Notes under the pieces: model-generated | Databases searched by the model: none | The model's input: only the letters and a program-made list of their open reading frames with translations | Told to the model about the DNA's origin: nothing | Shown: positions 1,677-25,960 of the stretch, piece by piece | Numbering within the stretch: the first letter of the stretch is position 1 | Layout: every line of letters starts with the position of its first letter | Assembly: GCA_947172415.1 (NCBI GenBank) | Contig: OX359198.1 | Location: forward strand, 1,953,401 to 2,017,400 | From: Chondrosia reniformis | Lineage: Eukaryota; Porifera; Demospongiae; Chondrillida; Chondrillidae | DNA: 64,000 nt | Reading direction: 5' to 3' | Position numbers and translations under genes: made by a program

Positions 1677-4641
1677 ATGGAACTGCTTAAAACTATTAAG
1701 AGACATGTACCAGGAAGGAAAATGTTTGTATACGTGCCTATCCTAAAAAGAACGGTATGTGATGGAAATTTTCAGACCTATCTCCTCTCATTCTTTTCTA
1801 TTCTGTTATTAGAATGCATGTTTTCTGGTCCAATAAATGAAACCATATCTGTATATGCATACAGGAAATTCTTCACGCAAACGGGACGAAGCGGGTGGCT
1901 GAATCAAAGAAACTCTTCGCTTTAAAGTTGAATAACAAATACAAAACGGTACGTTGCCTATATAACTCCACATCCTCTATACGTCTATAATAGAGTTTAG
2001 TTCCTGCATATTCACTATTATTGTCAAGATTTCTTTAATTTCTTTCCTAAGTATTATAGTATTACAGTATTTCGCTCTAAGACGAGCTCATCAAAACTAA
2101 TATATACTGCTAATTAATCGCAATTAAATGGAATATGTATATATTCCTCTGTAGACCATATTTGAGGACCAAAATTTTGCTTTCTATAAGCAAAATTCAG
2201 AAAATGGTTTCAAAGGAAAATACCTGGATGAAGAAATAACATGGAAAGAACATCTTACTGATAATACCAACACTTTAGAGGTGTGTATTTTAAAATTATA
2301 TCTCTTAAAAACATGCATCCATCTCCACATTATATATTACACAGTTCAGTCTAATTGAACGGACCAGACGTACCAACCAGTTGACAAGAAAACAAATTTT
2401 TAAGATAAATGATAAATCTTCAAGGAAGAAATTTGCCAGGGCTGTAGAAAGAAACCAGGTCAGCAAAGCTGTAAAAATGCTAAACAAAGGAATGGATCCC
2501 AATTTTGTAACCGAAACAGGAAGTAAGTTTTTATACATATTGATATCTGCATGCTCGGAAGTTCCCTACAAAAATAATCATTCATGATTATTTAATGCTC
2601 CACTGCATTCAGATACTCCACTTGGTATTGCTTGTGAGAATAAAGGAACAGATGACATGATCCTCGAGTTGATAAGGAATGGAGCCAGTTTTCATTTCAG
2701 AGGAAAAGATGGCCTAACTCCATTGCACAGAGCAGCAATGTGTGCAAATTATAAGGCAATGTTAACTCTTCTTCGTGCAGGAGCTTCTCCAAACTACAGA
2801 GATGCCAAAGTACACACACACACACACACAAACACACCCATACACACATATATATATACCTTCACTGAAATTATATATATAGACACTGTGCATTTGTTTA
2901 TATATGTACAGTAAAACATTTGAGTTATTTAGGCTATATATACAGTGCCTTTGGGTCAGTTGTCCAGACCATAAATCGCAATTGATTGATAATTGTAAAA
3001 GGTTATATGGTGAAGTCATTCTAGTGGGAAAGTTTATTCAAATGGTAGTCGCGAGTTACCGATTGCAACGTCCCGTCTGGAAAACCGACCCAAAAAATAC
3101 AATATATGGATTCCCCTAGCATGCAGACTTTTGTAATTTGTAATGGTTCATCTTTATAGTCTTATATAGTCTAAAGACTATAAACTAGATGCATGAACCA
3201 TGTCAAAAATTATGTAACTTTATGTATATATACATGTTGACTTAGATATACACATAATGCTTGTATCTCTTGGACATACCTATAGGGACTTACTCCTGTG
3301 TATTACTCTGTGGCCACATCAGATCCATTTCCCTGCTGGGTCCTTTTGAACTGTTCTCCTTATCGCTGTGACGTGGATGCTGCAAAATCCTCTGCTGGTG
3401 AAACTGCACTCCTTCTTGCTGCCCAGAAGGGCCATCTTCTTCAAGTGAAAATGTTGGCAGAATATGGAGCTGATGTTAACGCACCAATTGAAAAATGCAA
3501 GGGCTTGACGCTGTATCACATAGCAGTGTTGAGTGGAAACACGGAGTTGGCAAAGGTAAGATGCATATAAATATACATTGTATACCTGTATTATTATTTT
3601 GTATATCAATAGACAATTGCAAGTGTATATATATAGGGCATGTGCAATATAAACGAACAGTACATATGCATGTCACATATTGACTTTTTGTAAATGTTTA
3701 TCTGTAGATTTTATTGGAAAATGGAGCTAACATAGACTGTGCAAATATTGAGAATGTTTCTCGCAGATATATCAACTCACCATTTAAGTTGATGTTCAAA
3801 ATTCATAAGTCAGGTTAGTATGGATAGGTAATCTATAGTATATTACAATTTATGAGCAACAAAGAACATAATGAGATTGAGCATATGCATGCAGGCATGC
3901 ATACACTGTAATTATTCAGGCAGTATATATATTCATAATTTAAAATATTATATATTGTTATTAAATTGCTTACTTCTCTAATCTGTAGATTCAAAGTCCA
4001 ACCACCAGTCTCATGATCACATGACTCCCCTTTCACCAGAACAACCTCCTTCTGTGTTAGATGAAGTAATTAAATTAAGCTTTTCATTGTCTTCGATTGA
4101 GTCTTGTGACTCGTTTGAATCTTGTGACACACTTGAGGCAGAAGAAACAGAAATTCCCTCTGTAATAGGACCATCTGAAAGGGACTCTACAACACACCTG
4201 CACAGCACTAGAATACCTCAATGTAACTTGCCATCAAGCACTACTTCAAACTCTCCTTCTTCTGTACATGTGTCAAGTGACTCTGATCAGAGGGATTGTG
4301 TTACCAGTCACCAGTTTCATGATGAGGGTATTGCATCTGCACTAGCCAGCAAGGAATCTGTCGGTTCTAGTCGGATTAATAGTTGGGCCATCCACCAATT
4401 GAAGGCATTATTGGGTCAGGGTTCAACCTCAACCAAACTTTTCAACTTGGAGAGATCTCGATCAAGCCCAAACTTTTGCTCAGGTTATGATAAACTTGAA
4501 CATGATGCAGCAGAGTTTGTAAAGTTCAAAGCTAATTCTAAAGTCTTTTTGCAATTGCAGTCACAGTGTAAACTATTTTGGAATGCTTGCTCCCAATTTG
4601 ACAGTGTTTTGTCGAGTGTAGCTTGTACTATGGTGTATTGA
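1677..4641 (+). CDS. SHANK-like N-terminal protein (SPN + ankyrin repeats), copy 1
   Basis: Eight exons: 1677-1754, 1865-1948, 2155-2280, 2345-2522, 2613-2809, 3286-3555, 3708-3813, 3989-4641. All introns are GT-AG and the phases agree, giving 563 residues. Residues about 10-110 resemble the SHANK/ProSAP N-terminal (SPN) domain, a Ras-association-like fold. Note GFKGKYLDEE, where human SHANKs have a GKFLDEE motif. Residues about 110-345 hold ankyrin repeats very like those of SHANK: LNKGMDPNF, DGLTPLHRAA, RAGASPNYRD, GLTPVYYSVA, EYGADVNAP. The last 215 residues are Ser/Glu-rich and low in complexity. There is no SH3, PDZ, Pro-rich or SAM region, so this is only the front part of a SHANK. Human SHANK SPN binds GTP-loaded Ras/Rap and folds onto the ankyrin repeats; the same role here is an inference. 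The protein lacks a signal peptide or membrane helix and is probably cytoplasmic. Confidence 0.85.
2941..3104. mobile_element. MITE in intron 5 of SHANK-like copy 1
   Basis: An approximately 165 bp non-coding element begins tacagtgcctttgggtcagt and ends with the inverse, gacccaaaaaatac. The same element sits at equivalent positions in the other SHANK-like copies (about 12612-12775, 22723-22878, 41703-41860), so it was present before the duplications. A better preserved relative lies at 8236-8400. Confidence 0.7.
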
Positions 4642-5598
4642 TTACATATTTATTATAATTTTTATGACTAGTAATATTAATATTAATTTTAATTTGGGTT
4701 TGTGATAATTATATTGTACATATGCAGTTGTTCATAAATGAATGTGAAATACATTATATTGTGTATAAACTCTCCAGAATAATTACCAACAAATAACTTT
4801 TTCACTTGTATTTTTTATTATAACAATCTAAACTGATCATGATCGAATACATGTATAAGCCATATTATGAAACGAGAAAAGTCATATTATATCAGTAATT
4901 ATAATAAATGAAGTGAAATGATTAATGCAGCGAAGGAAAAACCATATACCTAATTAAGTGCTCATCTATTTGAGAGGTAGTTAAGTCCGGTGGAGATCAT
5001 CACTGTAGTCACATGTTGGGTTAATGAAAGCATGACCTTGAGACACATTATCGCCGAGTCAATCAATGAGAAGGAGACTTTGCACTTGACAGAGCATTTC
5101 TTCATTCCATTTCTATTTCCATTCCACTTTGAGTTGATTATCTTCTCAAGTCATCTAATTAAATATGGACCATTTTCACATGTACATACATGTATGCGAA
5201 ACGGTAGGCAGTTTGAACACAGTCATAGACCCGATTTCTTACAGGAACAGTTAAGGCAGCGACCGCTACCTTTATACATCCGCAATAATATGGCATTATC
5301 CATGCATATTGGAGGCAATCACGCCGGCGGCCTCACAACGCGGTCGGCCATTTTCTGTCATTTTTCGCATAATTTGCATGTATGTTTTTTTAACTCCTAC
5401 AATAATCTACAAGGAATGAAACTTGATTTATATCCGCCAATCAGAGAGCTCCATGTTAGCTTGAACCGTATATCTGCAATTACATGTACATGGTGTATGG
5501 TCGGCGACTGAGGAATTCTGAATATATATTTGATCTGAACTATCTATAGCTACTATTTAGTAGACTTGGAGTGGTATAATATAACAGTTTCATGAAAA
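4642..5598. other. Intergenic, SHANK-like to two-helix gene
   Basis: This is AT-rich non-coding sequence that probably holds the SHANK-like 3' UTR and the promoter of the next gene. An open frame at 4990-5511 looks long, but the duplicate at 14311-15232 carries indels that shift it, so I do not call a protein. Confidence 0.5.
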
Positions 5599-6441
5599 AT
5601 GGATCGTTCTTTGCAATACAGGATGGAGAGTTGGGAACAACTGTCTGTCAGTGCAGCTGGAATGCTAATTGACAAGTGTCTCTTCAATCCTGTCAGTGTA
5701 GCGATATTACTTTCAATTAGTTATTTCACGTTGTACTCAATGAAATCAAGTTTGAAAGGATTGACTATGGGAGTGTTCATTAAGACAGTAATTATATTTT
5801 TTATTACAGCAATTGTATTGATTATGGCGATCCCGACTCTACATTTAGCAACAGACCGTGTGATATTTCGTCCCCATCCAACGTGTACAATCTTCTATAA
5901 TCCTTGCAGATACGTTTGCGCTATTTTGGGAGACTATGGAAATCAAAGGAACTACGTAACTGAATGGCAAAACTGCAGCAAAGCCGACCCAAGAATTAAT
6001 GAAGCCGAACAATTTTATATTGTATCCACATGGATACCATCTCCAGATCATTTTAGGACAAAGAATCGCGTTTGGTTTGTACCAGACGGTAATCGTTCTA
6101 AAGGTTATTGGTTATCAAGCGACTATTGTGTACGTGCTAGTAGTGCTGTCATCAAAGATCAATATTATCGCGTAACATTTTACAGCTTAAATGGTACTGA
6201 ACTAATACTCCAGGATACCGGATTAATGGAAACAGCAGTTTTAGAGCCGTTCTATTTTGGATGGTATCTGATAAGTAATTGTAGAACTGAATTACATCGA
6301 TGGATTTGGTCATCGGCATGTAAGATTGGCTACGTGTCAACCAAATACATAAGACTTCCGCAATATTCTAGAATTTTACTGCTTGAAGATAGCAGTAAAG
6401 AAAAAGAAAAAGAAAAAAATCTATGCACAGAACTCAATTGA
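5599..6441 (+). CDS. Unrecognised two-helix membrane glycoprotein, copy 1
   Basis: An intronless gene of 280 codons starts in a good context (gaaaaATGG). I do not recognise the family. Two hydrophobic helices lie at residues 31-49 and 57-83. They are followed by a region of about 175 residues rich in Trp, Tyr and Cys (C96, C103, C107, C126, C177, C228, C241), with three N-glycosylation sequons at N125, N165 and N198. The sequons suggest this domain is luminal or extracellular. With two helices the short N-terminus would then also face outside. The tail is basic and charged (KEKEKEK). Two close relatives exist, at 15233-16075 and, inverted, at 36039-36854. It lies about 960 bp downstream of the SHANK-like gene and was duplicated with it. 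No function is assigned. Confidence 0.7.
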   Translation: MDRSLQYRMESWEQLSVSAAGMLIDKCLFNPVSVAILLSISYFTLYSMKSSLKGLTMGVFIKTVIIFFITAIVLIMAIPTLHLATDRVIFRPHPTCTIFYNPCRYVCAILGDYGNQRNYVTEWQNCSKADPRINEAEQFYIVSTWIPSPDHFRTKNRVWFVPDGNRSKGYWLSSDYCVRASSAVIKDQYYRVTFYSLNGTELILQDTGLMETAVLEPFYFGWYLISNCRTELHRWIWSSACKIGYVSTKYIRLPQYSRILLLEDSSKEKEKEKNLCTELN

Positions 6442-7320
6442 ACTGTATAGCTAGGCAGAGTCCAAACTATAATAGTGCATGCATGCTCAACTGTTATTTA
6501 AAGTAAACTTTAATTGTAATATAGTCTACGTCATTTATCAATGCAACACTAGTATATATTCTTGCCAGATGGTAAACATAGATGAATCACCTGTCATTCA
6601 AATTCACTGTGTCCGAAATTTCACCCCTAGCTGCTCCCATTTCTTATATTCTTTCACACCTCTGTATATTGATTATTTGAGTGTCAGCTTTTCAAAATAA
6701 ATTTACAGTATCACAAAAGGTTAAGTTTAAGCTTTGATGCTTTATGTACTCTAAGAAAAGGTCAAAGTTCAAAGTGTCATATATAAGGGTCATATTGAGA
6801 AAAGGTTTTTGTTGTATCTTTTGAAAATTAACACCTTTAACAGAAGCCAGCTGACTTATAACTTATACATGTCAATTCAAGCGGATAGGTATAGATGTGT
6901 GGTGTCTATATATATAGTTGGGAGAACACATAGAGGCCTAGGGCAACACTTAGGTCACAATCATTTATGTAACACTCACAGGATCAAATTTCAGGTTTCA
7001 CACTCACAGGATCAAATTTCAGGTTTCATATGGCATGAAATCTATTTGAAACTTTTGAAAAACCAGGTTTCAAAGGGTGCTCTAACAGTTTAATTTCACT
7101 GGTTTAAAGTTTTTAACAGCCCCCTTTCTGAGTTTTTAAATACATGCTTTCATACTTTTTGAAACCTGACAGTTCATAGAGTTTCAACTAGGTTTCATGC
7201 CTTCTGAAACCTGAGATTTGATCCTGTGACTGTAAACCGGCTGCCCATGTGATAGTAAATGACCTCGCTCTGCCAACCAATAAGTATACCAAATTAAACC
7301 TATATGCCAGTTGTTTGTTT
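6442..7320. other. Intergenic with inverted-repeat element
   Basis: The first several hundred bases match, in reverse, the flank of the two-helix gene copy near 35640-36000 and 37140-37660, so this flank was duplicated with that gene. The second part holds the inverted repeat listed separately. No gene is seen. Confidence 0.5.
6973..7232. repeat. Inverted-repeat element (MITE-like)
   Basis: The left end is cactcacaggatcaaatttc, repeated twice in tandem. The right end is the inverse, gagatttgatcctgtgact. Several inner blocks built on aggtttca/tgaaacct face each other. A relative lies at 37601-37898, interrupted there by extra sequence. It is non-coding and behaves like a small foldback transposon. 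Confidence 0.6.
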
Positions 7321-7626
7321 CTCACAGATATATCAACTCACCATTTAAATTGATGTTAAGTCAGGTTAGTATGGATAGGTAATCTATGGTGTATATATTA
7401 CAATTGATGAACATATGAAATACTTTATAATGAGATTGCAGGCATGCATGCATACACTGTAATTATACAGGCAGTATAATAATTATATATTCATAGGGAT
7501 ATAAGTTAAAATATAGCTCTCTTATAAGGGCTCTCTATAATTGCTTACTTCTCTAATCTGTATATAGATTCAAAGTCCTACTACCAATCTCATGATCACA
7601 TGACTCCCCTTTCACCAGAACAACCT
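7321..7626 (+). pseudogene. SHANK-like relic (exon 7 tail, intron 7, exon 8 head)
   Basis: Sequence matching the end of exon 7, all of intron 7 and the first codons of exon 8 of the SHANK-like gene (through the SPEQ codons) is stranded here. The exon 7 part has lost about 10 bases, which breaks the frame. The match stops abruptly at about 7627, where plexin intron sequence begins. This is a duplication breakpoint joining two genes, not a working exon. Confidence 0.75.
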
Positions 7627-7818
7627 GATGTTTTTGAGTATTATTACATACTGTACATGTGTTTTCATTATCACTGCAATTAGTATTCATAGTCTCTGGA
7701 GTCTATTGAACCAATATCTTGGATCCTTTTTGGGCTTCCGAGGGGGAGGGGGTATTTTTCTTATACAAGGACAGAGTAAGGAGTGTTGTGTTTTATCTAA
7801 TTTCCTTCTCACTTGCAG

Positions 7819-10031
7819 CGTATCTTACAGAGTTATGTTGACGATCTCTTCATGTCAATCTTCACAATACCAAGAGGAAAATCTCTACCAAAGGCTATCA
7901 AATATTTGTTTGATTTTCTGGATTTGCAAGCTGCTGAACTCTCTCAGAATGACCCAGATGTACTACATACATGGAAGACAAACAGGTTGGTGCAGTTGCA
8001 GATCTCCTCCCAGCTTTGTTGCTAGTAGTGATGATATGCGTACATAAAACTTCTTATATTATTAAATTCTGTATATGGCTCGGTGGAGAAGAAGTAGAAG
8101 AGAAAACACTCTTGTATCTTCATCCAAAGCTTTAATTACATATTAGCCTTTTACTCAAGAATAGGTGTTAGTAGCCTTTTAGTGTATAATCTAAATATAC
8201 ATACTCTACATATACGTACTGTACATATATACATATACAGTACTTTTTGGGTCGGTTGTCCAGACCAGACATTGCAATCAGTAATCAGTAAGCACTTGTG
8301 ACTACCATTTGAACAAACTTCCTACTAGAATAACGTCACCATGCAGTGATCACCTTTTTACCAATTACCAATTGCAACAACTGACCCAAAAAGTACTGTA
8401 TATACGTACATACGTAGTTTTATTTCATTATTGTACGTAGTTGTATCTACCTATCTGATTTAATAAGCTTACATTATTGTGTATGGTACTTGATGATTCG
8501 GCCTTCTTCTGGTGCTTGTACATAAATTCCTATCAAGAGTTATTTTACTGTTTAGTATATGTACACTACATGTACGTTTGTGTAATAGTGAGCTATGTAG
8601 TTATGCTACATACGGATAATACCTCCTATAGTCTTCCCCTTCGTTTCTGGGTGAACATTATCAAGAACCCTGAATTTGTGTTTGACATTCACAAGTCTGC
8701 CACAGTGGATGGGTGTTTAACTGTTGTAGCTCAAGCCTACATCGATGGAACCTCCACAAGTGATTTGCAGTACAATAAGGACACTCCTTCTGCTAGACTG
8801 CTCTATGTTAATGAAGTCAAGGCCTACAAGAAGAGAATTAATGAGTAAGTAACAGAAAAGTGTATTTACCTAGCTTATCACAATAAATGGATATCTATTT
8901 GTTTGTTACACGTACAATCTACGTCTATATAACCAACCTGACGTCCTATATTAGGAAGTGTATGTATGTATAATGTATTTCTAGTTAATTTCTTCCTTTT
9001 CTGTGAGATTCTGACTTAAAGCTGTTCACTTTTAGCTATTACGATGCTATTTATTAGAATGGTCTTGAATCCAATATTTAAACATATGTATGAAATAGCT
9101 TGTATGACATTGTGCTAATTTAAAATTGAATGTCGATAATTTGAACACACTGGACCTAAAAAAATTTACTGTAAATGTAAATTGGCGGTATTATTCAAAT
9201 TAACCACTCATTGTGTAGGCAAATGACACTGTATTGAAATTTGAGAATGTTCGTATAAAGCTTGAAGATTGCACTGTATTCAAATCTCTACTCTAGAAAA
9301 GCTGCATTCTCACTGTTAACTGTTAATTGTTGACTTACTCTTTTTTTCATTTTTTTTCATTTTCAGTTACTACAGTAACATTCAAGCATTGCCCAAGACA
9401 AATGAGTATGAGATGTCTGCGTACTTAAAGGAAATGTCACAGGTAATACAGGTACATATTATAATGCATATCAATTCACTTGAAGAGGAATAACTGTAAG
9501 TACATACGTACGTATACATAGGCTTCATAATAGTGTCCCTCACAAGTTGAAGACTGTAGATGCATATAGGCAAATTGGAAAGGTTCCTGATTCCTACAGT
9601 TTAATCCATGGGAATGTTTCTTGTAATAAAATGCACTGATAGAGTTTAAAATTACTGTTACAACAAGGAAAGAGCTTTAATGAATTTAACAAGTTCATTT
9701 GTAAGCTCTAAAATATTGGTAGTTTATCCTATACAGCTCCACACTTAGTGATGACCCCTAAATTATCTAAGTATGGACGTGCAGGATACTGGAGCTTTAA
9801 AATTTGTATCCCTGTCTATTAGATAAAGTTCTATTCTTTGAATGCAATCCTTTTATTTTCTTTCAGAGTCAACAGATGTACTTTGTGTCAGAGAGTGCTC
9901 TCTACGAACTCTTCAAGTATTCTTCTAAATTCAGTTTAGACCTCATTGAAGCTTTAGAGGAGGAAGGATTGACCAATTTAGCTCAAAACTTTGAACAGCT
10001 GAAGGAATCCCTAGACCCTCCACCAAAGTAG
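7819..10031 (+). CDS. Plexin cytoplasmic RasGAP C-terminal part, 5'-truncated duplicate
   Basis: Four exons, 7819-7985, 8632-8844, 9367-9442 and 9867-10031, join in frame to encode 206 residues. The product matches the C-terminal plexin RasGAP region closely: [25 protein letters not shown], then [20 protein letters not shown] and [13 protein letters not shown]. The LPLRFW motif carries an arginine of the second RasGAP segment. Everything N-terminal (Sema, PSI, IPT, transmembrane, first GAP segment, Rho-binding insert) is missing. Upstream of 7819 the sequence runs into the SHANK-like relic at 7627. No start codon or promoter is evident. Frames and splice sites are intact, so it may be a recent partial duplicate that is transcribed only by read-through. 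A functional truncated GAP fragment is possible but unlikely. Confidence 0.8.
8236..8400. mobile_element. MITE in plexin-fragment intron
   Basis: A 165 bp element has near-perfect terminal inverted repeats: tacagtactttttgggtcgg at the left and gacccaaaaagtactgta at the right. It is the best preserved member of the family also found in intron 5 of the SHANK-like genes. There is no coding capacity. Confidence 0.8.
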
Positions 10032-11324
10032 ACTTTTTCTGGGGCTGAAGTGTTACGTAAATTTTTAACATATTGATCGCTTGTTACTAAATTTAATATG
10101 TACTTTCTGAAACTCTAGATCATTTGATATGATGTGCCTGAGCAACCTATATGTATGGACAGTAAATGTGTATACTTTCTTTAAACTGTTTATACTCTAT
10201 TGTAGTTGTTTAGCCAGTACTTGACACTTACTTGTTGTAAACTGATTCCACTTGTGCAGTTTCTTCTTATTGAATTGTGTATTCATTGAAATTAAAATTC
10301 TTCGTATCCCCTTTGTAACTGAATATACGTATATCAAGGAAAGCAGATTCTCCTTAGAGATGCGTCGTCTTAATATTCAGATGTTTAAGACTAAATATAC
10401 TACATTCTTTGTCCACTGTTTTCAAAAGGAACATTGAATTTAAACTAATGGTCTTGAACTAAAGTTCCACTCTGGTTATAAACAGTAAAATTTCAGACAA
10501 ATGTTCAGTTTTTATCCAAGAACTTTGATTCACTGGGTACCAGTCTCCAATATTTCTAGTTTCTAATGGCGAAAACATACATATGAGTTTTGAAACATAT
10601 AAAGTCCTATCTCTCACTTACACATTTGCACGTATATATAGGACGGGAGTTTGGTGTATTGGTGTAATTTCTTTAGAAGGACTCTTAAGCTTGTTGGTGT
10701 TGCATATATGTATTATGATACTTACGGACCTTCAAAAGTATACTCTACGCTCGAGTTTGAATAAAGCATAAGTAAAAAAGATGCCAATTACATGCAAGTG
10801 TTACCTGAGAAACTGAAAGCCTTGAACCCTTCGCATTTTGCACTAGTTGTACAACTCACAGCGAGCAATATAACTAGTATTTCTCAAGATAGCGATATAT
10901 ACGCACCTTTCTTATATACTCTAAAGCTATAGCTAGGGGTCTACTAGAGTAACCAATCAATAATCGGTCCCTCGTATCTCAAAAACTACGAAAGCTATCA
11001 ACTTCAAATATACATCATTACACAGGCCTTTCTGAGAGAACATAGTGTACGTAATCAGGAATTTCTATCTAACTGCATCTTTGCGCTAGAGACGTTTGAA
11101 GAGGATGGCCGAAAATATCGATTATTACTCTATCAATTATGCAGAACCCCCGCGAAAACATCAGATTGTCCGCGAAATAAATCAAATCTGATTGAAGGAA
11201 AAATTCAGCCACTCATTGCCAAACAGTATACCGTACAGTGAGTGGTATAGGAGGTCAGAGCTTAACAGTAGTTAAATCAGTTACCGATCTCATTAGAAGA
11301 ATTGATTTGTAGAATTGAATTATC
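10032..11324. other. Intergenic, second unit
   Basis: This is the duplicate of 326-1676, non-coding, differing by substitutions and several short indels. I see nothing further in it. Confidence 0.5.
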
Positions 11325-14310
11325 ATGGAACTGCTTAAAACTATTAAGAGACATGTACCAGGAAGGAAAATGTTTGTATACGTGCCTATCCTAAAAAGAA
11401 CGGTATGTGATGGAAATTTTCAGACCTGTCTCCTCTCATTCTTTTCTATTCTGTTATTAGAATGCACATGTTTTTTTGGTCCAATAAATGAAACCATATC
11501 TGTATATGCCTACAGGAAATTCTTCACGCAAACGGGACGAAGCGGGTTGCTGAAACAAAGAAACTCTTCGCTTTAAAGTTGAATAACAAATACAAAACGG
11601 TACGTTGCCTATATAACTCCACATCCCTTATACGTCTATAATAGAGTTTAGTTCCTACATATTCACTATTATTGTCAAGATTTCTTTAATTTCTTTCCTA
11701 AGTATTATAGTATTACAGTATTTCGCTCTAAGACGAGCTCAACAAAACTAATACTGCTAATTAATCGCAATTGAATGGAATATGTATATATTCCTCTGTA
11801 GTCCATATTTGAGGACCAAAATTTTGCTTTCTATAAGCAAAATTCAGAAAATGGTTTCAAAGGAAAATACCTGGATGAAGAGATAACATGGAAAGAACAT
11901 CTTACTGACAATACCAACACTTTAGAGGTATGTATTTTAAAATTATATATCTCTTAAAAACATGCATCCATCTCCACATTATATATTACACAGTTCAGCC
12001 TAATTGAACGGACCAGACGTACCAACCAGTTGACAAGAAAACAAATTTTTAAGATAAATGATAAATCCTCAAGGAAGAAATTTGCCAAGGCTGTAGAAAG
12101 AAACCAGGTCAGCAAAGCTGTAAAAATGCTAAACAAAGGAATGGATCCCAATTTTGTAACCGAAATAGGAAGTAAGTCTTTATATATATATTGATATCTG
12201 CATACTCAGAGTTCCTACATACGTATATTCTACAAACCTGCATCTTGTGATAATTCATGATTAATTAATGCTCCACTGCATTCAGATACTCCACTTGGTA
12301 TTGCTTGTGAGAATAAAGGAACAGATGACATGATCCTCGAGTTGATAAGGAATGGAGCCAGTTTTCATTTCAGAGGAAAAGATGGCCTAACTCCATTGCA
12401 CAGAGCAGCAATGTGTGCAAATTATAAGGCAATGTTAACTCTTCTTCGTGCAGGAGCTTCTCCAAACTACAGAGATGCCAAAGTACACACACACACACAA
12501 ACACACCCACATAAATATATATACATATATACCTTCACTGAAATTATATATATAGACACTGTGCATTTGTTATATATGTACAGTAAAACATTTGAGTTAT
12601 TTAGGCTATATATACAGTGCCTTTGGGTCAGTTGTCCAGACCATAAATCGCAATTGATTGATAATTGTAAAAGGTTATATGGTGAAGTCATTCTAGTGGG
12701 AAAGTTTATTCAAATGGTAGTCGCGAGTTACCGATTGCAACGTCCCGTCTGGAAAACCGACCCAAAAAATACAATATATGGATTCCCCTAGCATGCAGAC
12801 TTTTGTAATTTGCAATGGTTCATCTTTATAGTCTTTAAAGTGTCTAAAGACTATAAACTAGATGCATGAACCATGTCAAAAATTATGTAACTTTATGTAT
12901 ATATACATGTAGACTTAGATATACACATAATGCTTGTATCTCTTGGACATACCTATAGGGACTTACTCCTGTGTATTACTCTGTGGCCACATCAGATCCA
13001 TTTCCCTGCTGGGTCCTTTTGAACTGCTCTCCTTATCGCTGTGACGTGGATGCTGCAAAATCCTCTGCTGGTGAAACTGCACTCCTACTTGCTGCCCAGA
13101 AGGGCCATCTTCTTCAAGTGAAAATGTTGGCAGAATATGGAGCTGATGTTAACGCACCAATTGAAAAATGCAAGGGCTTGACGCTGTATCACATAGCAGT
13201 GTTGAGTGGAAACACGGAGTTGGCAAAGGTAAAATGCATATAAATATACATTGTATACCTGTATTATTATTTTGTATATCAATAGACAATTGCAAGTGTA
13301 TATATATAGGGCATGTGCAATATAAACGAACAGTACGTATGCATGTCACATATTGACTTTTGGTAAATGTTTATCTGTAGATTTTATTGGAAAATGGAGC
13401 TAACATAGACTGTGCAAATATTGAGAATGTTTCTCGCAGATATATAAACTCACCATTTAAGTTGATGTTCAAAGTTCATAAGTCAGGTTAGTATGGATAA
13501 GTAATCTATAGTATATTACAATTTATGAGCAACAAAGAAATAATGAGATTGAGCATATGCATGCAGGCATGCATACACTGTAATTATTCAGGCAGTATAT
13601 ATATTCATAATTTAAAATATTATATATTGTTATTAAATTGCTTACTTCTCTAATCTGTAGATTCAAAGTCCAACCACCAGTCTCATGATCACATGACTCC
13701 CCTTTCACCAGAACAACCTCCTTCTGTGTTAGATGAAGCAATTAAATTAAGCTTTTCATTGTCTGAGTCTGAGTCTTGTGACTCGTTTGAATCTTGTGAC
13801 ACACTGGAGGCAGAAGAAACAGAAATTCCCTCTGTGTTAGGACCATCTGAAAGGGACTCTACAACACACCTGCACAGCACTGAAATACCTCAATGTAATT
13901 TTCCATCAAGCACTACTTCAAACTCTCCTTCTGTACATGTGTCAAGTGACTCTGATCAGAGGGATTGTGTTACCAGTCACCAGTTTCATGATGAGGGTAT
14001 TGCATCTGCACTAGCCAGCAAGGAATCTATCGGTTCTAGTCGGATTGATAGTCGGACCATCCACCACTTGAAGGCATTATTGGGTCAGGGTTCAACCTCA
14101 ACCAAACTTTTCAACTTGGAGAGATCTCGATCTAGCCCAAGCTTCAGCTCAGGTTATGATGAACTTGAACATGATGTAGCAGAGTTTGTAAAGTTCAAAG
14201 CTAATTCTAAAGTCTTTTTGCAATTGCAGTCACAGTGTAAACTATTTTGGAATGCTTGCTCACAATTTGACAGTGTTTTGTCGAGTGTAGCTTGTACTAT
14301 GGTGTACTGA
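11325..14310 (+). CDS. SHANK-like N-terminal protein, copy 2
   Basis: Eight exons: 11325-11402, 11516-11599, 11802-11927, 11994-12171, 12286-12482, 12959-13228, 13381-13486, 13661-14310. The frame is intact and encodes 562 residues. The structure is identical to copy 1, with all splice sites conserved. Differences are few: Ser for Thr at the start of exon 3, TEIG for TETG at the end of exon 4, Val for Ile in exon 7, one Ser codon lost in the tail, and several changes in the Ser/Glu-rich tail (SESESCDSF against SSIESCDSF). The ankyrin core is practically unchanged while the tail varies most. It sits in the second 9.7 kb unit, upstream of the second two-helix gene. Both copies look functional. 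Confidence 0.85.
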
Positions 14311-15232
14311 TTACATATTAATTTTATTATAATTTTTTGACAATACTAGTAATATTAATTTTAATTTGGGTTTGTGATAATTATATTGTACATATTTAGT
14401 TGTTCATAAATGTATGTGAAATACATTATATTGTGTATAAATTCTCCAGAATAATTACCAACAAATAACTTTTTCACTTGTATTTTTTATTATAACAATC
14501 TAAACTGATCATGATCGAATACATGTATAAGCCATATTATGAAACGAGAAAAGTCATATTATATCAGTAATTATAATAAATGAAGTGAAATGATTAATGC
14601 AGCGAAGGAAAAACCATATACCTAATTAAGTGCTCATCTATTTGAGAGGTAGTTAAGTCCAGTGGAGATCATCACTGTAGTCACATGTTGGGTGAATGAA
14701 AGCATGATCTTGAGACACATTATCGCCGAGTCAATCAATGAGAAGGAGACTTTGCACTTGACAGAGCATTTCTTCATTCCATTTCTATTTCCATTCCACT
14801 TTGAGTTGATTATCTTCTCAAGTCATCTAATTAAATATGGACGATTTTCACATGTACATATGCGAAACGGTAGGCAGTTTGAACACAGTCATAGACCCGA
14901 TTTCTTACAGGAACAGTTAAGGCTGCGACCGCTACCTTTATACATCCGCAATAATATGGCATTATCCATGCATATTGGAGGCAATCACGCCTCACAACGC
15001 GGTCGGCCATTTTCTGTCATTTTTCGCATAATTTGCATGTATGCAAGGAATGAAACTTGATTTATTTCCGCCAATCAGAGAGCTCCATGTTAGCTTGAAC
15101 CGTATATCTGCAATTACATGTACATGGTGTATGGTCCGCGACTGAGGAATTCTGAATATATATTTGATCTGAACTATCTATAGCTACTATTTAGTAGACT
15201 TGGAGTGGTATAATATAACAGTTTCATGAAAA
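14311..15232. other. Intergenic, second unit
   Basis: This is the duplicate of 4642-5598. Relative to that copy it has lost short blocks, around 14860, 14990 and 15040, that would shift any reading frame. It is therefore treated as non-coding flank and promoter. Confidence 0.5.
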
Positions 15233-16075
15233 ATGGATCGTTCTTTGCAATACAGGATGGAGAGTTGGGAACAACTGTCTGTCAGTGCAGCTGGAATGCT
15301 AATTGGCAAGTGTCTCTTCAATCCTGTCAGTTTAGCGATATTACTTTCAATTAGTTATTTCACGTTGTACTCAATGAAATCAAGTTTGAAAGGATTGACT
15401 ATGGGAGTGTTCATTAAGACAGTAATTATATTTTTTATTACAGCAATTGTATTGATTATGGCGATCCCGACTCTACATTTAGCAACAGACCGTGTGATAT
15501 TTCGTCCCCATCCAACGTGTACAATCTTCTATAATCCTTGCAGATACGTTTGCGCTATTTTGGGAGACTATGGAAATCAAAGGAACTACGTAACTGAATG
15601 GCAAAACTGCAGCAAAGCCGACCCAAGAATTAATGAAGCCGAACAATTTTATATTGTATCCACATGGATACCATCTCCAGATCATTTTAGGACAAAGAAT
15701 CGCGTTTGGTTTGAACCAGACGGTAATCGTTCTAAAGGTTATTGGTTATCAAGCGACTATTGTGTACGTGCTAGTAGTGCTGTCATCAAAGATCAATATT
15801 ATCGCGTAACATTTTACAGCTTAAATGGTACTGAACTAATACTCCAGGATACCGGATTAATGGAAACAGCAGTTTTAGAGCCGTTCTATTTTGGATGGTA
15901 TCTGATAAGTAATTGTAGAACTGAATTACATCGATGGATTTGGTCATCGGCATGTAAGATTGGCTACGTGTCAACCAAATACATAAGACTTTCGCAATAT
16001 TCTAGAATTTTACTGCTTGAAGATAGCAGTAAAGAAAAAGAAAAAGAAAAAAATCTATGCACAGAACTCAATTGA
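15233..16075 (+). CDS. Unrecognised two-helix membrane glycoprotein, copy 2
   Basis: An intronless frame of 280 residues differs from the copy at 5599 at only four positions: Asp to Gly in the N-terminus (LIGKC), Val to Leu before helix 1, Val to Glu after VWF, and Pro to Ser near the C-terminus. All cysteines and the three sequons are kept. The 16076-16130 flank still matches the first unit, then similarity ends, marking the right edge of the 9.7 kb duplication. Confidence 0.7.
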   Translation: MDRSLQYRMESWEQLSVSAAGMLIGKCLFNPVSLAILLSISYFTLYSMKSSLKGLTMGVFIKTVIIFFITAIVLIMAIPTLHLATDRVIFRPHPTCTIFYNPCRYVCAILGDYGNQRNYVTEWQNCSKADPRINEAEQFYIVSTWIPSPDHFRTKNRVWFEPDGNRSKGYWLSSDYCVRASSAVIKDQYYRVTFYSLNGTELILQDTGLMETAVLEPFYFGWYLISNCRTELHRWIWSSACKIGYVSTKYIRLSQYSRILLLEDSSKEKEKEKNLCTELN

Positions 16076-17689: not shown

Positions 17690-19340
17690 TCAATATGGCA
17701 ACATGTTCACATTTTCATCCTCCCTTCTCTCATCTTCATTATTATCACCTGCTTCATACCAATCCTTCATTTTCCTCTTCCCAAAGTACCCAAGACCAGC
17801 CACTAACAAGGTTGATATTACATATTCCATCAACTTGGTGCTATCAAAGAGAGGTGACCCGTCCCTGTAATGTCTCAACAAGGCAATAACATACAGCGAC
17901 AAGCCTGTATAAATGAACACTATAGCAATGCAAAAAAAGATAGTTGCATAATTGCTACAAATGCAACAATTCTTAGGATGTCTCAACATCAGATACACTT
18001 CATGTAGAATGACAACAATTGCTGCTAACAGTAAAATATACCAGAAAGTGTATATTACACTTTCGAATGGTGACCTAATAAAAGATATTACAAGATACAC
18101 TATGGCTACTCCAAACACTTGAATACTATAGAGTGGACCTGCCCATCCAAGAGATACTGCATGACATCTGATCACCCTCCTCCATCTTGCAGATATTTGC
18201 TGCTGGTTATAATTAGATGTATCATAAAGATATTTGTTTATTTTGCTATAAATGAGTGGATATTGACCTATCAAGATGATGAACCCTAATACTTCAATCA
18301 TGAGAGCAATCACACAGTTCGGAAGGAAAAACTCGGGATAGTACTCTTCATGTGACATCAGAAGTAGAGTACATTTTAAGTTGCTCGCGAAATAATAACT
18401 GAGATAAAACAGAGACAGACACCAAGTAAAGAGTTTGAATCTTTTTATTTGTCTCTTTTGACTCTGATTCAGAAAAAAAATGAAAATTTTATTCTCACTT
18501 CTGATGAGTCTTACCATTACCAAATTTCCAAGGATCATTACTCCAACAACAGCAATGTTCTTTGCTAGAGTGTAGGTCCAACTTGAAGGAGTAAAAGATT
18601 TTAGTATGCCAAGAGGTGAAAATGTAGCTAGTGATAATCCATATGGTTTTCCCTCATACCACATTGGTGCATAGCGAAAGAACACCCCTTGTTGGTCATT
18701 CATCACCTTTGATAACAGAAAGTATAGTAATCAATAAACTGAAACAGTGTCCATAATACCACTTGAAAGTGATCATAAATACATAATATAGCTATCCTTA
18801 TAATTATAATGAAAGTGCATAGTAAATATACAAGTTCTGCATATAGTCACTTACATTAGCTGCAAAGTCCTCCAAAAGGGAAGGATCACATAAAGTTGGA
18901 ACAGACAAGCAGAGTGTTTGAGGTAGAATATGTGAGTCCTTTCTGAGGACATTAAACATGAGTGGAGGTAGTACTAAATAGTAATAATAGTAGTACCACA
19001 TAAATATATCACAATCCTTAGTGTTCCACTGACAACAAGACTTCTCTATATCTAACACTGTATTATTCTGACTAGATACATTGATCATTTTGAAGTGGAA
19101 CACTTTGATTCGCTTTGAAAAATTGAAAATTTCCTTTATATCCAGTGGATTGCCAAAGTAATCATGAATACCAAAGTGCTTGTTTCCACTTCTCAGGGCA
19201 TCCATCATCTGATCTAAATTCTCTACACATTCCTTGTTCTTGTAATTTTCCTCTCCACTTGTGTATCTAACCTGAAGCAGTACTAGTATCAGTAAGTAGA
19301 CAGTGAAGGTCCAGGATAGAGGACACTTCACAGAAGTCAT
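17690..19340 (-). CDS. Unrecognised seven-helix membrane protein with ectodomain, copy 1
   Basis: Two exons on the minus strand, 19340-18855 and 18706-17690, are joined at phase 0 (donor AAT|gtaagt, acceptor caaag|GTG), giving 500 residues. A signal peptide (residues 1 to about 29, VYLLILVLLQV) leads a Cys-containing N-terminal region of about 170 residues with sequons NVS and NNT. Seven hydrophobic helices follow at about 205-229, 253-272, 291-315, 343-372, 379-402, 415-438 and 455-470. The tail is acidic (NNEDERRED). The layout is that of a receptor with an external N-terminus. However, I see no DRY, NPxxY or other signature of a known GPCR class, so I give no family. Copies lie at 24316-25960 and 44040-45687. 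Confidence 0.7.
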
Positions 19341-21914
19341 AGCTGCGCTTCGATCTCAATCAGCTGCAGAGATGGGCAATTTAGAAAAAATTAGAACACT
19401 TTAAAGAATTTACAAAGCTATATATTTTCATTTATACCATGCATACTCTTATATACACTGGTCTGGTAATGCAAGCATTCATCTAGTTTGACATGGTATA
19501 AATAGGCTGCATTCACTGTATGTTAACAACCATACACATGTATTATTCTTTTGAATGCAAACTGAATGACTGATTTAATATTGCCGTTTCACTACGGATT
19601 TTCATTATTTATAAATATTAATAAACAGTGTTTTAGTTTCACACAAAACTGTCTCTGTACTCTCCTATACATGTGTTTACAGTGAAGGAGTTACCTATAT
19701 ATATATACGTACATACAAACTGTATACTCTCAACTGAACTATCAGTACTTACTAGTTAATCTTCATGTACATATCTGTAGACTAGTGGTAAGTCGACGTC
19801 ACAATGTACATATATATAATGCTAAGAGAACCAAGTTTTTCTAGACTTTTAACAAGAAATTAAAGGCATTGTACGTAAATCCCAAAATAGTTGTTATTCA
19901 ATTTGTGCATGCTCAGACACAAATCCTGCCAAAACATGTTATTACATCAACCACTGTCATGTGGTGTTTCACAGAGAAACAGATATAAAGAAAATGTCTC
20001 AATGTTAATTTATAATTTAACAAAGTAATTCTCTACCTACGTACATATAGCAGTTACAGATATGTGGGTCATATTAAAAAGATGTTCACATTATGTCACA
20101 AATTAATGTTTGTTTCTTTCATGTACATCCATTAAAAAAGACTTTGGAGAAACTGCCTTGTCTAAATTTCAATCAGCTGCTAGGTAAATATACCCGACTT
20201 ACATGTAAATTTGTTCTACAAGTGAGAGCCACATTAACAATTGATTACTTAATTTCCAATTGAATGGTTGCCAGGGAACTGTATCTGGTTGCTATGGAGA
20301 CCCTTCTATGAAATGAAGGCGTGCATGCTATATAGAAGCAAACAAGAGGTACAATGTAAGCACCTTAATGTACACCTAAGATGGGACAGCACTGTAACCA
20401 CTCCACCAATAGCCATAGCTGCAATGGATTCAAAATCAGATATGCCCATTGGGCAAATTTAATCTAGAAGATTTCTTCTATCTAGTTACCATGGATACTA
20501 AATAAAAGTAAAACAAATACATTATCTAAATAGCTATAGCTATACAGAAACAACTTACTTCTTGAACAGTTGTACCTAGTCAACTTTAATAAACTTGCTC
20601 AAAGGGATTGTACAGTTTCATAGCCAAATATTACGACAAACTGATTAATAGGATACAGAGAACCACACACCTCCCCCAACTGCCAATTGAATGGTTGCCT
20701 GGGAACTGCACCTGGTTGCTATGGAGACTCTTTTATGAAATAAATGAAGGTACATAGGCTTTAATACAGAAGCAAGCAAGATGCACAATGTAAGTACATT
20801 TAGACAAGGCCAGCACTGTAACCACTCCCCCAAATGAGTGTAGCCATAGGGAGCTGTAATGGACCCCAAATCAGGTATACCCATTAGTTCATTTGAAGAA
20901 TTCCTCTATCTAGTTACCATGGATACTAAGTAAGAGTAAAACAAATATATAGATTATCTAAGTAGCTATACAAAAACAAGAAACTTTCTGAACAGTTTTA
21001 CAATTTACCTACCAGCTAACGTCAAAGCCAACTTTAACAATCTTGCTCAAAGGGATTTTACAGTTTCACAGCCATTTATATTGGTAAGCCTGTACTACAC
21101 TGTCACACATATATACCCAAACTGAACTATGGGAGCCAGGACTTGCTAGTTACTATAGGGGCTGGTATATGTAGACATGCTAAATATGGCAGTCTTATTG
21201 AACAGATGTAGTTTACAGTTGTTATACTCACTTCTGATTCCATGCTAATTTCCCTTGATCCAATATTTTCTTTCACTATCTTCTCCCACCAGGATGGGTT
21301 AAGCCATTAATTATGATTCCCTATCACTCAGTCCTTCTTAAATTGGCCATGTTGTTAGGAAACAGACATTTGATTTCCATGACAATTCTTCTGTATACAT
21401 ACAGCAAATAAAGTATATATAGGCTTCTTTGCGTAAACAAAAATGCATAGACGTATACTTGAAGTTCAAATTAGATTTTGAATAGTCTCACAAGTAAGTA
21501 TTCTTATTGATTAATGTGCGATTCTTAACATTGTAACTTAGATGAAAACAAACTTTAATTAAACTTATTAAAGTATTGGGTTAGGTATATACAGTATTAG
21601 GTATATTTTATTATTATAGTTTGTCTGATTCCTTAAACAAGATAACCTACCTTAAGGGCATGTACAACGCCAAAGTTCTCAATAGAGCGTCAATAGCAAC
21701 GGCCATTTTGGATTCCCTACTTGATTTTAGTAATAATAAACAAAAAGTCATTGCATAAAACATGTCTATAATAGAGTTTAGTTGCTACATATTCACTATT
21801 ATTGTCAAGATTTCTTTCCTAAGTATTACAGTATTTCGCTCTAAGACGAGCCCAACAAAACTAATACTGCTAATTAATCGCAATTGAATGGAATATGTAT
21901 ATATTCCTCTGTAG
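19341..21914. other. Non-coding upstream block of the seven-helix gene
   Basis: This is AT-rich non-coding sequence, repeated in whole or part at 25961-29660, 38400-40760 and 45688-48480. It includes a roughly 375 bp direct repeat, listed separately. The part after about 21760 is the 5' flank of the truncated SHANK-like copy 3. No coding region is supported; several short open frames here are disrupted between copies. Confidence 0.5.
20258..21065. repeat. Direct repeat, two units of about 375 bp
   Basis: Units at about 20258-20640 and 20686-21065 share ccaattgaatggttgcc, ggttgctatggagac, ctagttaccatggatact and ctcaaagggatt in the same order. The corresponding region holds two units near 39208-40070 but only one near 28575-28985 and one near 47375-47780. 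Copy number therefore changes between duplicons. Confidence 0.7.
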
Positions 21915-23768
21915 TCCATATTTGAGGACCAAAATTTTGCTTTCTATAAGCAAAATTCAGAAAATGGTTTCAAAGGAAAATACCTGGATGAAGAAATAAC
22001 ATGGAAAGAACATCTTACTGATAATACCAACACTTTAGAGGTGTGTATTTTAAAATTATATCTCTTAAAAACATGCATCCATCTCCACATTATATATTAC
22101 ACAGTTCAGCCTAATTGAACGAACCAGACGTACCAACCAGTTGACAAGAAAACAAATTTTTAAGATAAATGATAAATCTTCAAGGAAGAAATTTGCCAGG
22201 GCTGTAGAAAGAAACCAGGTCAGCAAAGCTGTAAAAATGCTAAACAAAGGAATGGATCCAAATTTTGTAACCGAAACAGGAAGTAAGTCTTTATATACAT
22301 ATTGATATCTGCATGCTCGGAAGTTCCCTACAAAAATATAAATTAACCTGCATTTAATTATTCATGATTATTTAATGCTCCACTGCATACAGATACTCCA
22401 CTTGGTATTGCTTGTGAGAATACAGGAACAGATGACATGATCCTTGAGTTGATAAGGAATGGAGCCAGTTTTCATTTCAGAGGAAAAGATGGCCTAACTG
22501 CATTGCACAGAGCAGCAATGTGTGCAAATTACAAGGCAATGTTAACTCTTCTTCGTGCAGGAGCTTCTCCAAACTACAGAGATGCCAAAGCACACACACA
22601 CACAAACACACCCACACATACATTCTCTGACACTAAAATATATATAGACACCGTGTGCATTTGTTATATATGTAATATATGTATATACAGTAAAACATTT
22701 GAGTTATTTAGGCTATATATATATAGTGCTTTTTGGGTCAATTGTCCAGACCAGACATTACAATTGATCGATATAGGTTATATGGTGAAGTCATTCTAGT
22801 GGGAAAGTTTGTCAAATGGTAGTCGCAAGTTACTGATTGCAACGTCCAGTCTGGAAAACCGACCCAAAAAGTACCATATACGGATTCCCCTCTTGGACAT
22901 ACCTATAGGGACTTATATACTCCTGTGTATTACTCTGTGGCCACATCAGATCCATTTCCCTGCTGGGTCCTTTTGAACTGCTCTCCTTATCACTGTGACG
23001 TGGATGCTGCAAAATCCTCTGTTGGTGAAACTACACTCCATCTTGCTGCCCAGAAGGGCCATCTTCTTCAAGTGAAAATGTTGGCAGAATATGGAGCTGA
23101 TGTCAACGCACCAATGGAACAATGCAAGGGCTTGACACTGTATCACATAGCAGTGTTGAGTGGAAACGCGGAGTTGGTAAAGGTAAAATGCATATAAATA
23201 TACCTATTATCAATACAATATGTGTACCGTAATTCGGGAAATTTTCGTTGTTAAAATTTCGTGGCAGAAGAAACAGAAATTCCCTCTGTGTTAGGACCAT
23301 CTGAAAGGGACTCTACAACACACCTGCACAGCACTGAAATACCTCAATGTAACTTTCCATCAAGCACTACTTTAACTCTCCTTCTTCTGTACATGTGTCA
23401 AGTGACTCTGATCAGAGGGATTGTGTTACCAGTCACCAGTTTCATGATGAGGGCATTGCATCTGCACTAGCCTGCAAGGAATCTGTCGGTTCTAGTCGGA
23501 TTAATAGTTGGACCATACACCACTTGAAGGCATTATTGGGTCAGGGTTCAACCTCAACCAAACGTTTCAACTTGGAGAGATCTCGATCAAGCCCAAGCTT
23601 CAGCTCAGGTTATGATGAACGTGAACATGATGCAGCAGAGTTTGTTAAGTTCAAAGCTATATAATTCTAAAGTCTTTTTGCAATTGCAGTCACAGTGTAA
23701 ACTATTTTGGAATGCTTGCTCACAATTTGACAGTGTTTTCGAGTGTAGCTTGTACTATGGTGTACTGA
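21915..23768 (+). pseudogene. SHANK-like copy 3, decayed
   Basis: Exons 3 to 6 (21915-22040, 22105-22282, 22393-22589, 22909-23182) and most of exon 8 (from 23265) are present. Exons 1 and 2 are absent. Lesions seen by comparison with copy 1: the exon 5 donor GT is GC (22590); exon 6 has a 4-base insertion (274 instead of 270 bases); exon 7 and the head of exon 8 are deleted, with the break inside a transposon end at 23264; exon 8 has a 1-base loss (actttaact), a 4-base gain (gctatataattc) and a 2-base loss near the end. It cannot encode the full protein. The 5' truncation point is shared with copy 4. Confidence 0.85.
23225..23264. mobile_element. Left end of a MITE, truncated
   Basis: About 40 bases starting taccgtaattcgggaaattt match the left terminus of the complete element at 42207-42499. 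The match ends exactly where SHANK-like exon 8 resumes. The deletion that removed exon 7 therefore occurred after this element had inserted. Confidence 0.75.
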
Positions 23769-24315
23769 TTACATAATATTATTTATTATAATTTTTATGA
23801 CATTAATATTAATTTCATTTTGCGTTTGTGAGAATTATTGTACATAAGACATTTATTTGGAATCCAGTAAAGAAGCTAATGAACTTTCAGAAATTATGCT
23901 AACGTATATATGGCTTCCTGTTCTTAACCTTGTATCTGTCACCAAAATAGTGGACGTTCGGCTGGCTTTCGTTTTCAATAGAGCTTAAAACTAGTTTGTC
24001 TTTATAAGCGTCGAATATTAAATGGACGAAAAGGATTTAGAAACCACCTTTACTAATACTATGTAACGTAAAGCCTGCGTAAAAACGTTTTTTTACGAGA
24101 TATAGCCTTGAAATATTAACGGCAATCAAGCGACGACCCGATGAGTAGTTAGAGTTTGCCCTTGCGCCCCACGTGTTTTTTAAACTCGAACTACTTGGTT
24201 GGATTAAGCAACTTTTTTGCTGATCTCTTATTCACAATTCCATACAGGAAAATTATATTGTTAAAATGTTTATATAATTCAGATTAAATTAATGTTCACA
24301 CAAACACAAAACTCA
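23769..24315. other. Intergenic, convergent gap between SHANK-like copy 3 and seven-helix copy 2
   Basis: Non-coding. It is repeated almost unchanged at 43499-44039. I see no gene or recognised element. Confidence 0.45.
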
Positions 24316-25960
24316 TCAATATGGCAACATGTTCACATCTTCATCCTCCCTTCTCTTATCTTCACCTGCTTCATACCAATCCTTCATTTTCCTCTTCCCA
24401 AAGTATCCAAGAGCAGCCACTAACAAGGTCGATATTACATATTCCATCAACTTGGTGCTATCAAAGAGAGGTGACACGTCCCTGTAATGTCTCAACAAGG
24501 CAATAACATACAGTGACAAGCCTGTATAAATGAACACTATAGCAATGCAAAAAAAGATAGTTGCATAATTGCTACAAATGCAACAATTCTTAGGATGTCT
24601 CAACATCAGATACACTTCATGTAGAATGACTACAATTGCTGCTAACAGTAAAATATACCAGAAAGAGTAAGTTACAGTTTCTAAGGGTGAGTCTAAAAAG
24701 AATATTACAAGATACACAATGGCTACTCCAAACATTTGAATACTATAGAGTGGACCTGCCCATCCAAGAGATATCGCATGACATCTGATCACCCTCCTCC
24801 ATCTTGGAGATATTTGCTGCTGGTTATAATTAGATGTATCATAAAGATATTTGTTTATTTTGTTATAAATGAGTGGATATTGACCTATAAAGATGATGAA
24901 TATTAACACTGCAATCGTAAGAGCAATCACACAGTCTGGAAGGAAAAACTCGGGATAGTACTCTTCATGTGACACCAGAAATAGAGTACATTTTAAGTTG
25001 CTCGCGAAATAATAACTGAGATAAAACAGAGACAGACACCAAGTAAAGAGTTTGAATCTTTTTATTTGTCTCTTTTGACTCTGATTCAGAACAAAAATGA
25101 AAATTTTATTCTCACTTCTGATGAGTCTTATCATTAGCAAATTTCCAAGAATCACTACCCCAACAACAGCAATGTTCTTTGCTAGAGTGTAGGTCCAACT
25201 TGAAGGAGTAAAAGATTTTAGTATGCCATCAGGTGAAAATGTATCTAGTGATAATCCATATGGTTTTCCCTCATACCACATTGGTGCATATCGAAAGAAC
25301 ACCCCTTGTGGGTCATTCATCACCTTTAATAACAGAAAGTATAGTAAATCAATAAACTGAAACAGTGTGCATAGTACTACTTGAAAGTGATCATAAATAT
25401 ATATACAATATAGCTATCCTTATAATTATAATGAAAGTGCGGCATATATACAAGTTCTGCATATAGTCACTTACATTAGCTGCAAAGTCCTCCAAAAGGG
25501 AAGGATCACATAAAGTTGGAACAGACAAGCAAAGTGATTGAGGTAGGATATGTGAGCCCTTTCTGAGGACATGAAACATGAGCGGAGGTAGTACTAAATA
25601 GTAATAATAGTGGTACCACATAAATATATCACAATCCTTAGTGTTCCACTGACAACAAGACTTCTCTATATCTAACACTGTATTATTCTGACTAGATACA
25701 TTGATCATTTTGAAGTGGAACACTTTGACTATCTGTGAAAAATTGAAAATTTCCTTTATATCCAGTGGATTGCCAAAGTAATCACGAATACCAAAGTGCT
25801 TGTTTCCACTTCTGAGGGCATCCATCATCTGATCTAAATTCTCTACACATTCCTTGTTCTTGTAACTTTCCTCTCCACTTGTGTATCTAACCTGAAGCAG
25901 TACTAGTATCAGTAAGTAGACAGTGTAGGTCGAGGATAGAGGACACTTTAGATAAGTCAT
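24316..25960 (-). CDS. Unrecognised seven-helix membrane protein, copy 2
   Basis: Exons 25960-25475 and 25323-24316 join as in copy 1, giving 497 residues. The splice sites are intact and the frame is open. The exon 1 product differs from copy 1 at scattered sites (MTYLKCPLSSTYT against MTSVKCPLSWTFT; FSQIVKVFHF against FSKRIKVFHF). Helix 3 differs (VIALTIAVLIFIIFIG against VIALMIEVLGFIILIG), as does the loop after helix 4 (FLDSPLETVTYS against FIRSPFESVIYT). The acidic tail is three residues shorter. It is close to identical to copy 3, its counterpart in the second duplicon. Confidence 0.7.

Follow-up and report, generated by a model that had tools for sequence, protein, structure and literature searches.

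Stand-alone SPN-ankyrin genes of the SHANK family in the sponge Chondrosia reniformis: candidate adaptors that may be uncoupled from Ras/Rap

Chromosome 10 of the kidney sponge Chondrosia reniformis carries, within the 64-kb stretch of DNA analysed here as a whole (positions 1,953,401-2,017,400; hereafter, the window), a cluster of short genes encoding an SPN-type N-terminal region followed by ankyrin repeats and a serine-rich tail. Two members, copies 1 and 2, together account exactly for positions 1677-14310, the span in which the preliminary description had placed two intact genes. Both are indeed intact, and the 563-residue model proposed earlier was reproduced for copy 1, whereas copy 2 encodes 562 residues with the same layout and, likewise, only GT-AG introns.

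1677-4641, + strand: copy 1, intact, 8 exons, 563 amino acids; all 7 introns GT-AG, frame open throughout
1677-1754, + strand: copy 1 exon 1, start of the SPN, with its last codon just before the position of SHANK3 K22 (splice/ORF model; intron 1 has the column and phase of that of the full SHANK gene)
1865-1948, + strand: copy 1 exon 2, SPN
2155-2280, + strand: copy 1 exon 3, SPN, with the motifs QNFAFYKQ and GKYLDEE
2345-2522, + strand: copy 1 exon 4, end of the SPN, linker and first ankyrin repeat
2613-2809, + strand: copy 1 exon 5, ankyrin repeats (Pfam ankyrin)
3286-3555, + strand: copy 1 exon 6, ankyrin repeats (Pfam ankyrin)
3708-3813, + strand: copy 1 exon 7, end of the repeat region
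3989-4641, + strand: copy 1 exon 8, serine-rich tail of ~216 amino acids and stop codon; the tail has matches only in the cluster
11325-11402, 11516-11599, 11802-11927, 11994-12171, 12286-12482, 12959-13228, 13381-13486 and 13661-14310, + strand: the 8 exons of copy 2, intact, 562 amino acids, laid out as in copy 1

Across a duplicated block of ~9.65 kb, which also holds an open frame of 281 codons, the DNA of copies 1 and 2 is about 95-96% identical. Their tail had been described as rich in serine and glutamate; serine does make up 20% of it, but glutamate, at 6.5-7.9%, is not notable. A Pfam search with copy 1 returned no match in the tail, and the tail has no relatives elsewhere in the genome, all 8 of its genome matches falling inside the window cluster. 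The other members of the cluster are damaged to different degrees.

7316-7626, + strand: relic retaining parts of exon 7 and of the beginning of exon 8
20683-21766, no strand assigned: unrelated repeated segment in place of the expected 5' end of copy 3, with more copies at 28584-29686, 39664-40753 and 47376-48487
21915-23768, + strand: copy 3, pseudogene lacking exons 1-2 and 7; the donor following exon 5 is GC, exon 6 holds 4 additional bases, and exon 8 is truncated and shifted
40902-43496, + strand: copy 4, pseudogene without exons 1-2; exon 5 contains an in-frame stop, and exon 8 has two gaps of 8 bases each

Upstream of copies 3 and 4, the DNA changes to the unrelated repeat inside intron 2; both copies thus begin within that intron and lack exons 1-2, and given this loss and their further lesions, we regard them as pseudogenes. 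The count of four copies plus a relic given previously is therefore correct, but only two of the four are intact, and with half of the copies dead the locus is under gene turnover. We also considered whether the copies could be assembly duplicates, which is disfavoured: copies 3 and 4 bear different lesions on one scaffold, and the window contains no N. The window is also crossed by large direct duplications (19836-33402 against 38791-52250), which form three blocks of about 96-98% identity and mark a region of recent duplication.

The genome searched for further family members comprised 117,379,552 bases in 15 contigs; the assembly, odChoReni1.1, is reported to consist of 117.37 Mb in 14 chromosomes and a mitochondrion (PMC12181767). 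Searching it with the SPN-ankyrin region yielded 115 matches, of which those with at least 48% identity fell in the window cluster and on chromosomes 5, 2 and 6, the remainder being ankyrin matches of at most 43%. Two other SPN queries (15 and 11 genome matches) led to the same four places and to none further. A separate full SHANK gene, the presence of which had been suggested as a check, exists: one such gene was found, on chromosome 6 (about 3,378,827-3,393,331), with SPN, ankyrin repeats, SH3 (SH3_2, E 2.7e-6), PDZ (E 4.6e-11) and SAM (SAM_1, E 1.8e-20), as well as a 1,172-codon, partly proline-rich open frame ahead of the SAM exon. In the PDB, its PDZ is matched best by SHANK1 and its SAM domain by SHANK2, while the SPN-ankyrin part hits SHANK3 at an E of 1.3e-69. 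The genes on chromosomes 5 and 2, hereafter the C5 and C2 genes, are short: the former encodes 540 amino acids with a different tail of ~222 residues, and the latter 356 amino acids, with a stop soon after the last repeat. Together with copies 1 and 2, they bring the number of intact short genes in the genome to four. The models of the full SHANK, C5 and C2 genes were built from splice signals and homology only. For exons 2-3 of the full SHANK gene there are two splice options, of which we took the longer (phase-1 intron, weak donor), its length being nearer to that of SHANK3; the alternative is in phase 0 and about 10 residues shorter. R12 and K22, the residues considered below, lie outside the disputed stretch, K22 being the first codon of exon 2 either way. 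Upstream of the C5 gene, a 531-codon frame (L031, about 233-1825, complement) looks by eye like PNKP, the polynucleotide kinase 3'-phosphatase.

The short genes almost certainly encode the SPN-ankyrin module of the SHANK family, as had been proposed from the letters of the window. In a phmmer search of the PDB with copy 1, the SHANK3 chains 6kyh, 5g4x and 6kyk match co-linearly over residues 18 to 327-328 (best E 8.4e-39), ranking 8th, 11th and 12th among the best 60 of 420 matches. Above them stand ankyrins and designed ankyrin proteins matched through the repeats, and it is because of the repeats that ankyrin-type chains outrank SHANK3 with copy 1, the full sponge SHANK and the C2 gene as queries; accordingly, what counted for the assignment was how long the SHANK3 match is and where it begins, not its rank. 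Similarly, residues 1-182 of the C2 gene match SHANK3 as one stretch, from 4 to 179, at an E of 3.3e-11 (ranked 32nd). Since many ankyrin proteins match the repeats, some with better E values, the SPN was searched separately. On its own, the SPN of a single copy gave an E of 0.97, which is not significant, yet this was its sole match in the PDB up to E 10. A profile of the SPN from three short genes, without the full SHANK, retrieved SHANK3 in all four of its PDB matches up to E 1 (best E 2.5e-4), and inclusion of the full sponge SHANK lowered the best E to 1.1e-9, one of the five matches being a non-SHANK protein at E 0.53. Pfam, searched with the whole copy 1 protein and with the SPN alone, gave no SPN family but ankyrin families and one sub-threshold match each; because of this, Pfam alone is no test here and PDB sequences and profiles were used instead. 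A bacterial or phage origin of the SPN was also considered and rejected: the SPN profile fitted 218 stretches in a collection of prokaryote genome contigs, of which tblastn confirmed none, and the SPN of the C2 gene found nothing among phage records, neither collection containing sponges.

The exon structure ties the short genes to each other and to the full SHANK of the same sponge, the gene with which they were compared. The first six exons measure 78/84/126/178/197/270 nt in copies 1 and 2, 84/84/126/178/197/264 nt in the C5 gene and 78/84/126/178/197/264 nt in the C2 gene, and all six SPN-ankyrin introns share alignment column and phase across the four. The full SHANK agrees with them in column and phase for five of the six, the exception being intron 2, which in the chosen model is one column off and in phase 1 and is the least certain splice choice. 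From SPN to first ankyrin repeat, the full sponge SHANK is 35.6-37.7% identical to the short genes. An unrooted FastTree phylogeny of six sequences sets SHANK3 and the full sponge SHANK apart from the short genes (support 1.00) and places the C2 gene with the SHANKs, apart from the C5 gene and copies 1-2 (support 0.86); as the tree has no root, the order of duplications is tentative. The short genes are likely to have been made by duplication of the 5' half of a SHANK gene at the DNA level, with its introns retained, rather than via RNA, giving rise to paralogues that now occupy three places, namely, the chromosome-10 cluster (two intact and two broken copies), chromosome 5 and chromosome 2.

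Selection has acted unevenly along these genes. Between copies 1 and 2, dN/dS of the SPN-ankyrin part is 0.17, a value resting on 13 changes (8 synonymous and 5 nonsynonymous; Fisher p 0.002), compared with 0.71 in the tail (7 synonymous and 18 nonsynonymous; p 0.46), and per site nonsynonymous changes are rarer in the former than in the latter (p 0.0001). Of 1,267 aligned intron sites, 46 differ between the two copies. Between loci, dN/dS of the ankyrin part is 0.29-0.30 for three pairs of short genes and 0.27-0.28 for short genes against the full SHANK; for the SPN, it is 0.28 between copy 1 and the C5 gene, synonymous sites being saturated for the other four pairs tried. Thus, the SPN-ankyrin part of the short genes is under constraint and the tail much less so.

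The constraint can be compared with what is known of individual residues in SHANK3. When aligned with a SHANK3 chain, the five sponge sequences are all identical to it at N52, L68, Q106 and P141 and all have L in place of I102. The two residues of the GTPase face behave differently: K22, which we take to be a Ras/Rap contact residue of SHANK3, is E in all four intact short genes and K in the full SHANK, and R12 is replaced by F in three of the four (copies 1 and 2 and the C5 gene), with R in C2 and the full SHANK. Our comparison of this face covers the R12/K22 site and positions 19-20, which read KR, KR, GK and RR in the short genes, QQ in SHANK3 and NA in the full sponge SHANK. Studies of SHANK3 report that the SPN folds back onto the ankyrin repeats, with N52 and P141 in that interface, that L68 is required for the SPN fold, that Q106 lies beside the linker binding inactive CaMKII, and that R12 contacts Ras/Rap and CaMKII (PMC8766471, PMC10861631); a second Rap1 site has been reported in the SHANK3 N-terminus (PMC10861631). 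With K22 changed in every intact short gene and R12 in most, the Ras/Rap binding that the preliminary description associated with SHANK is doubtful here.

From these observations, we infer, at about even odds or slightly below, how the short proteins might work. They most likely fold as the closed SPN-ankyrin tandem of SHANK and would serve as small adaptors in which the ankyrin groove and the linker bind partners of the SHANK N-terminus. Since SH3, PDZ, the proline-rich region and SAM are missing, they would compete with or buffer the full SHANK rather than assemble it. As the face for Ras/Rap-GTP is altered, GTPase binding has probably been lost or changed, leaving the proteins insensitive or differently sensitive to Ras/Rap. 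Taken as a whole, the reading of the short genes as SHANK N-terminal paralogues that encode folded SPN-ankyrin adaptors, probably uncoupled from Ras/Rap, seems to us evenly poised between right and wrong; pointing away from uncoupling, a GTPase contact could be restored by the one or two basic residues found at positions 19-20, and R12 is retained in the C2 gene. It is possible, if on the unlikely side, that the genes form a natural family of SHANK antagonists in a nerveless animal, in which a closed tandem competes for N-terminal partners independently of Ras/Rap and the GTPase face was lost stepwise, first by the change of K22 to E, seen in every intact short gene, and later by that of R12 to F in the genes of chromosomes 5 and 10.

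Several other explanations have to be weighed against this reading. Because the models come from DNA alone, exon 8 might be alternatively spliced to further 3' exons, so that the stand-alone form would be an artefact of annotation. This is very improbable: with a cutoff of E 1, tblastn searches of the 64-kb window and of the 25-kb regions surrounding the C5 and C2 genes with the sponge's own SHANK SH3, PDZ and SAM found none of these domains, although the control, the chromosome-6 SHANK region, returned all three, and the three loci end in three different C-termini after the repeats. As far as the DNA shows, then, the module stands alone, and the absence of SH3, PDZ or SAM noted in the preliminary description holds. 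Whether such a module is a source or an offshoot of SHANK had been left undecided. That it is ancestral, with SHANK arising by its fusion to SH3-PDZ-SAM, is scarcely credible, there being nothing in its favour beyond the existence of the short genes: the choanoflagellate Monosiga is reported to have a full-length SHANK with the complete domain set, two SPN introns of which are common to animal SHANKs (PMC2824662), and in the unrooted six-sequence tree SHANK3 pairs with the sponge SHANK. Descent as a derived branch of SHANK appears more likely on both counts, so that of the two options the offshoot is favoured and the source is not. Finally, the window genes could be debris, recent duplicates on their way to becoming pseudogenes and without present function, as might be expected where two of four copies are broken, a relic persists, and a tail found only in the cluster evolves almost freely. 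We nevertheless consider this improbable, since copies 1 and 2 are fully open with every splice site present and the low dN/dS of the SPN-ankyrin part, both between these copies and, for its ankyrin portion, between loci, argues against it.

The main rival accepts that the proteins are functional and concerns the GTPase instead. Overexpressed SHANK3 SPN is reported to block Rap1 activation, which the R12C mutant does not do (PMC11928058), and the short proteins might, by analogy, have retained Ras/Rap-GTP binding by way of shifted basic residues and sequester the GTPase, limiting Rap1-driven adhesion. The basic residues at positions 19-20 of all four intact short genes and the R12 of the C2 gene would suit such a role, whereas the exchange of R12 for F in three of them and of K22 for E in all four, at a site where the full SHANK keeps both, would not; on the residues compared, we judge sequestration unlikely. 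Our preferred reading is that of the short proteins as adaptors probably uncoupled from Ras/Rap.

SHANK is a master scaffold of excitatory synapses, and C. reniformis has neither nerves nor synapses. SHANK was present in the sponge Amphimedon according to a 2007 study (PMC1876816), and is reported to be upregulated in choanocytes of another sponge (PMC6823388). With SHANK1-3/ProSAP, of which the SHANK3 N-terminus has been solved (5g4x, 6kyh, 6kyk), the short genes share the order of SPN and then ankyrin repeats, and they retain the four SHANK3 residues N52, L68, Q106 and P141, but they differ in that no SH3, PDZ, proline-rich region or SAM was found in them, in their altered R12/K22 pair and in having three C-termini at three loci. 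The chromosome-6 SHANK, with which they have five of six introns in common by column and phase, differs from them in possessing SH3, PDZ, the long, partly proline-rich frame and SAM, and in keeping R12 and K22. The short genes also have the architecture of the SPN-ankyrin fragment of SHANK3 described as a laboratory construct (PMC10861631, PMC11928058); the sponge set, by contrast, consists of natural genes, and R12, reported as necessary for the laboratory SPN to block Rap1 activation, is changed in three of the four intact ones. One of these studies remarks that SHANK variants without just the SPN or just the ankyrin part have not been reported, and that the two hence seem to occur in tandem (PMC10861631). 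Among the papers listed by our search of the open PMC literature, judged by title and start of abstract, there was no report of stand-alone SPN-ankyrin genes; for the SHANK family, this architecture is new. Autism variants, among them R12C and L68P, are reported in the SPN-ankyrin switch of the SHANK N-terminus (PMC8766471, PMC10861631). In this context, the sponge set would amount to a natural separation-of-function series, with the GTPase face changed and the closing interface kept, making it possible to test, where synapses are absent, which tasks of the N-terminus depend on Ras/Rap and for which the closed tandem suffices. Should the antagonist family be real, it would tune a scaffold that predates synapses.

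Other genes of the window are repeated as well. An open frame of some 281-284 codons occurs three times (5596-6441, + strand; 15230-16075, + strand; 36039-36893, - strand) and, by eye, has hydrophobic stretches close to its start; two of these copies belong to the duplicated block that carries the SHANK-like genes, and the first has only an insignificant Pfam match, to MscL (E 0.02). A pair of neighbouring frames, of about 337-365 and 183-194 codons, is likewise present three times on the - strand (17690-19355, 24316-25975 and 44040-45702); the longer member shows many hydrophobic segments by eye, and neither frame of the second copy has a Pfam match up to E 0.1. Open frames at 51843-52355 and 59285-59917 (- strand) look, by eye only, like exons of a thiolase (acetyl-CoA acetyltransferase). 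Several copies of short collagen-like genes, in which a Gly-X-Y run is followed by a Cys-containing C-terminal region, lie at 34760-35272, 53047-53973 and 56455-57363 (+ strand), with an inverted piece near 63454-64000; the one at 53047-53970 matches Pfam Collagen with an E of 2.3e-14, and these genes presumably resemble the short-chain collagens of sponges.
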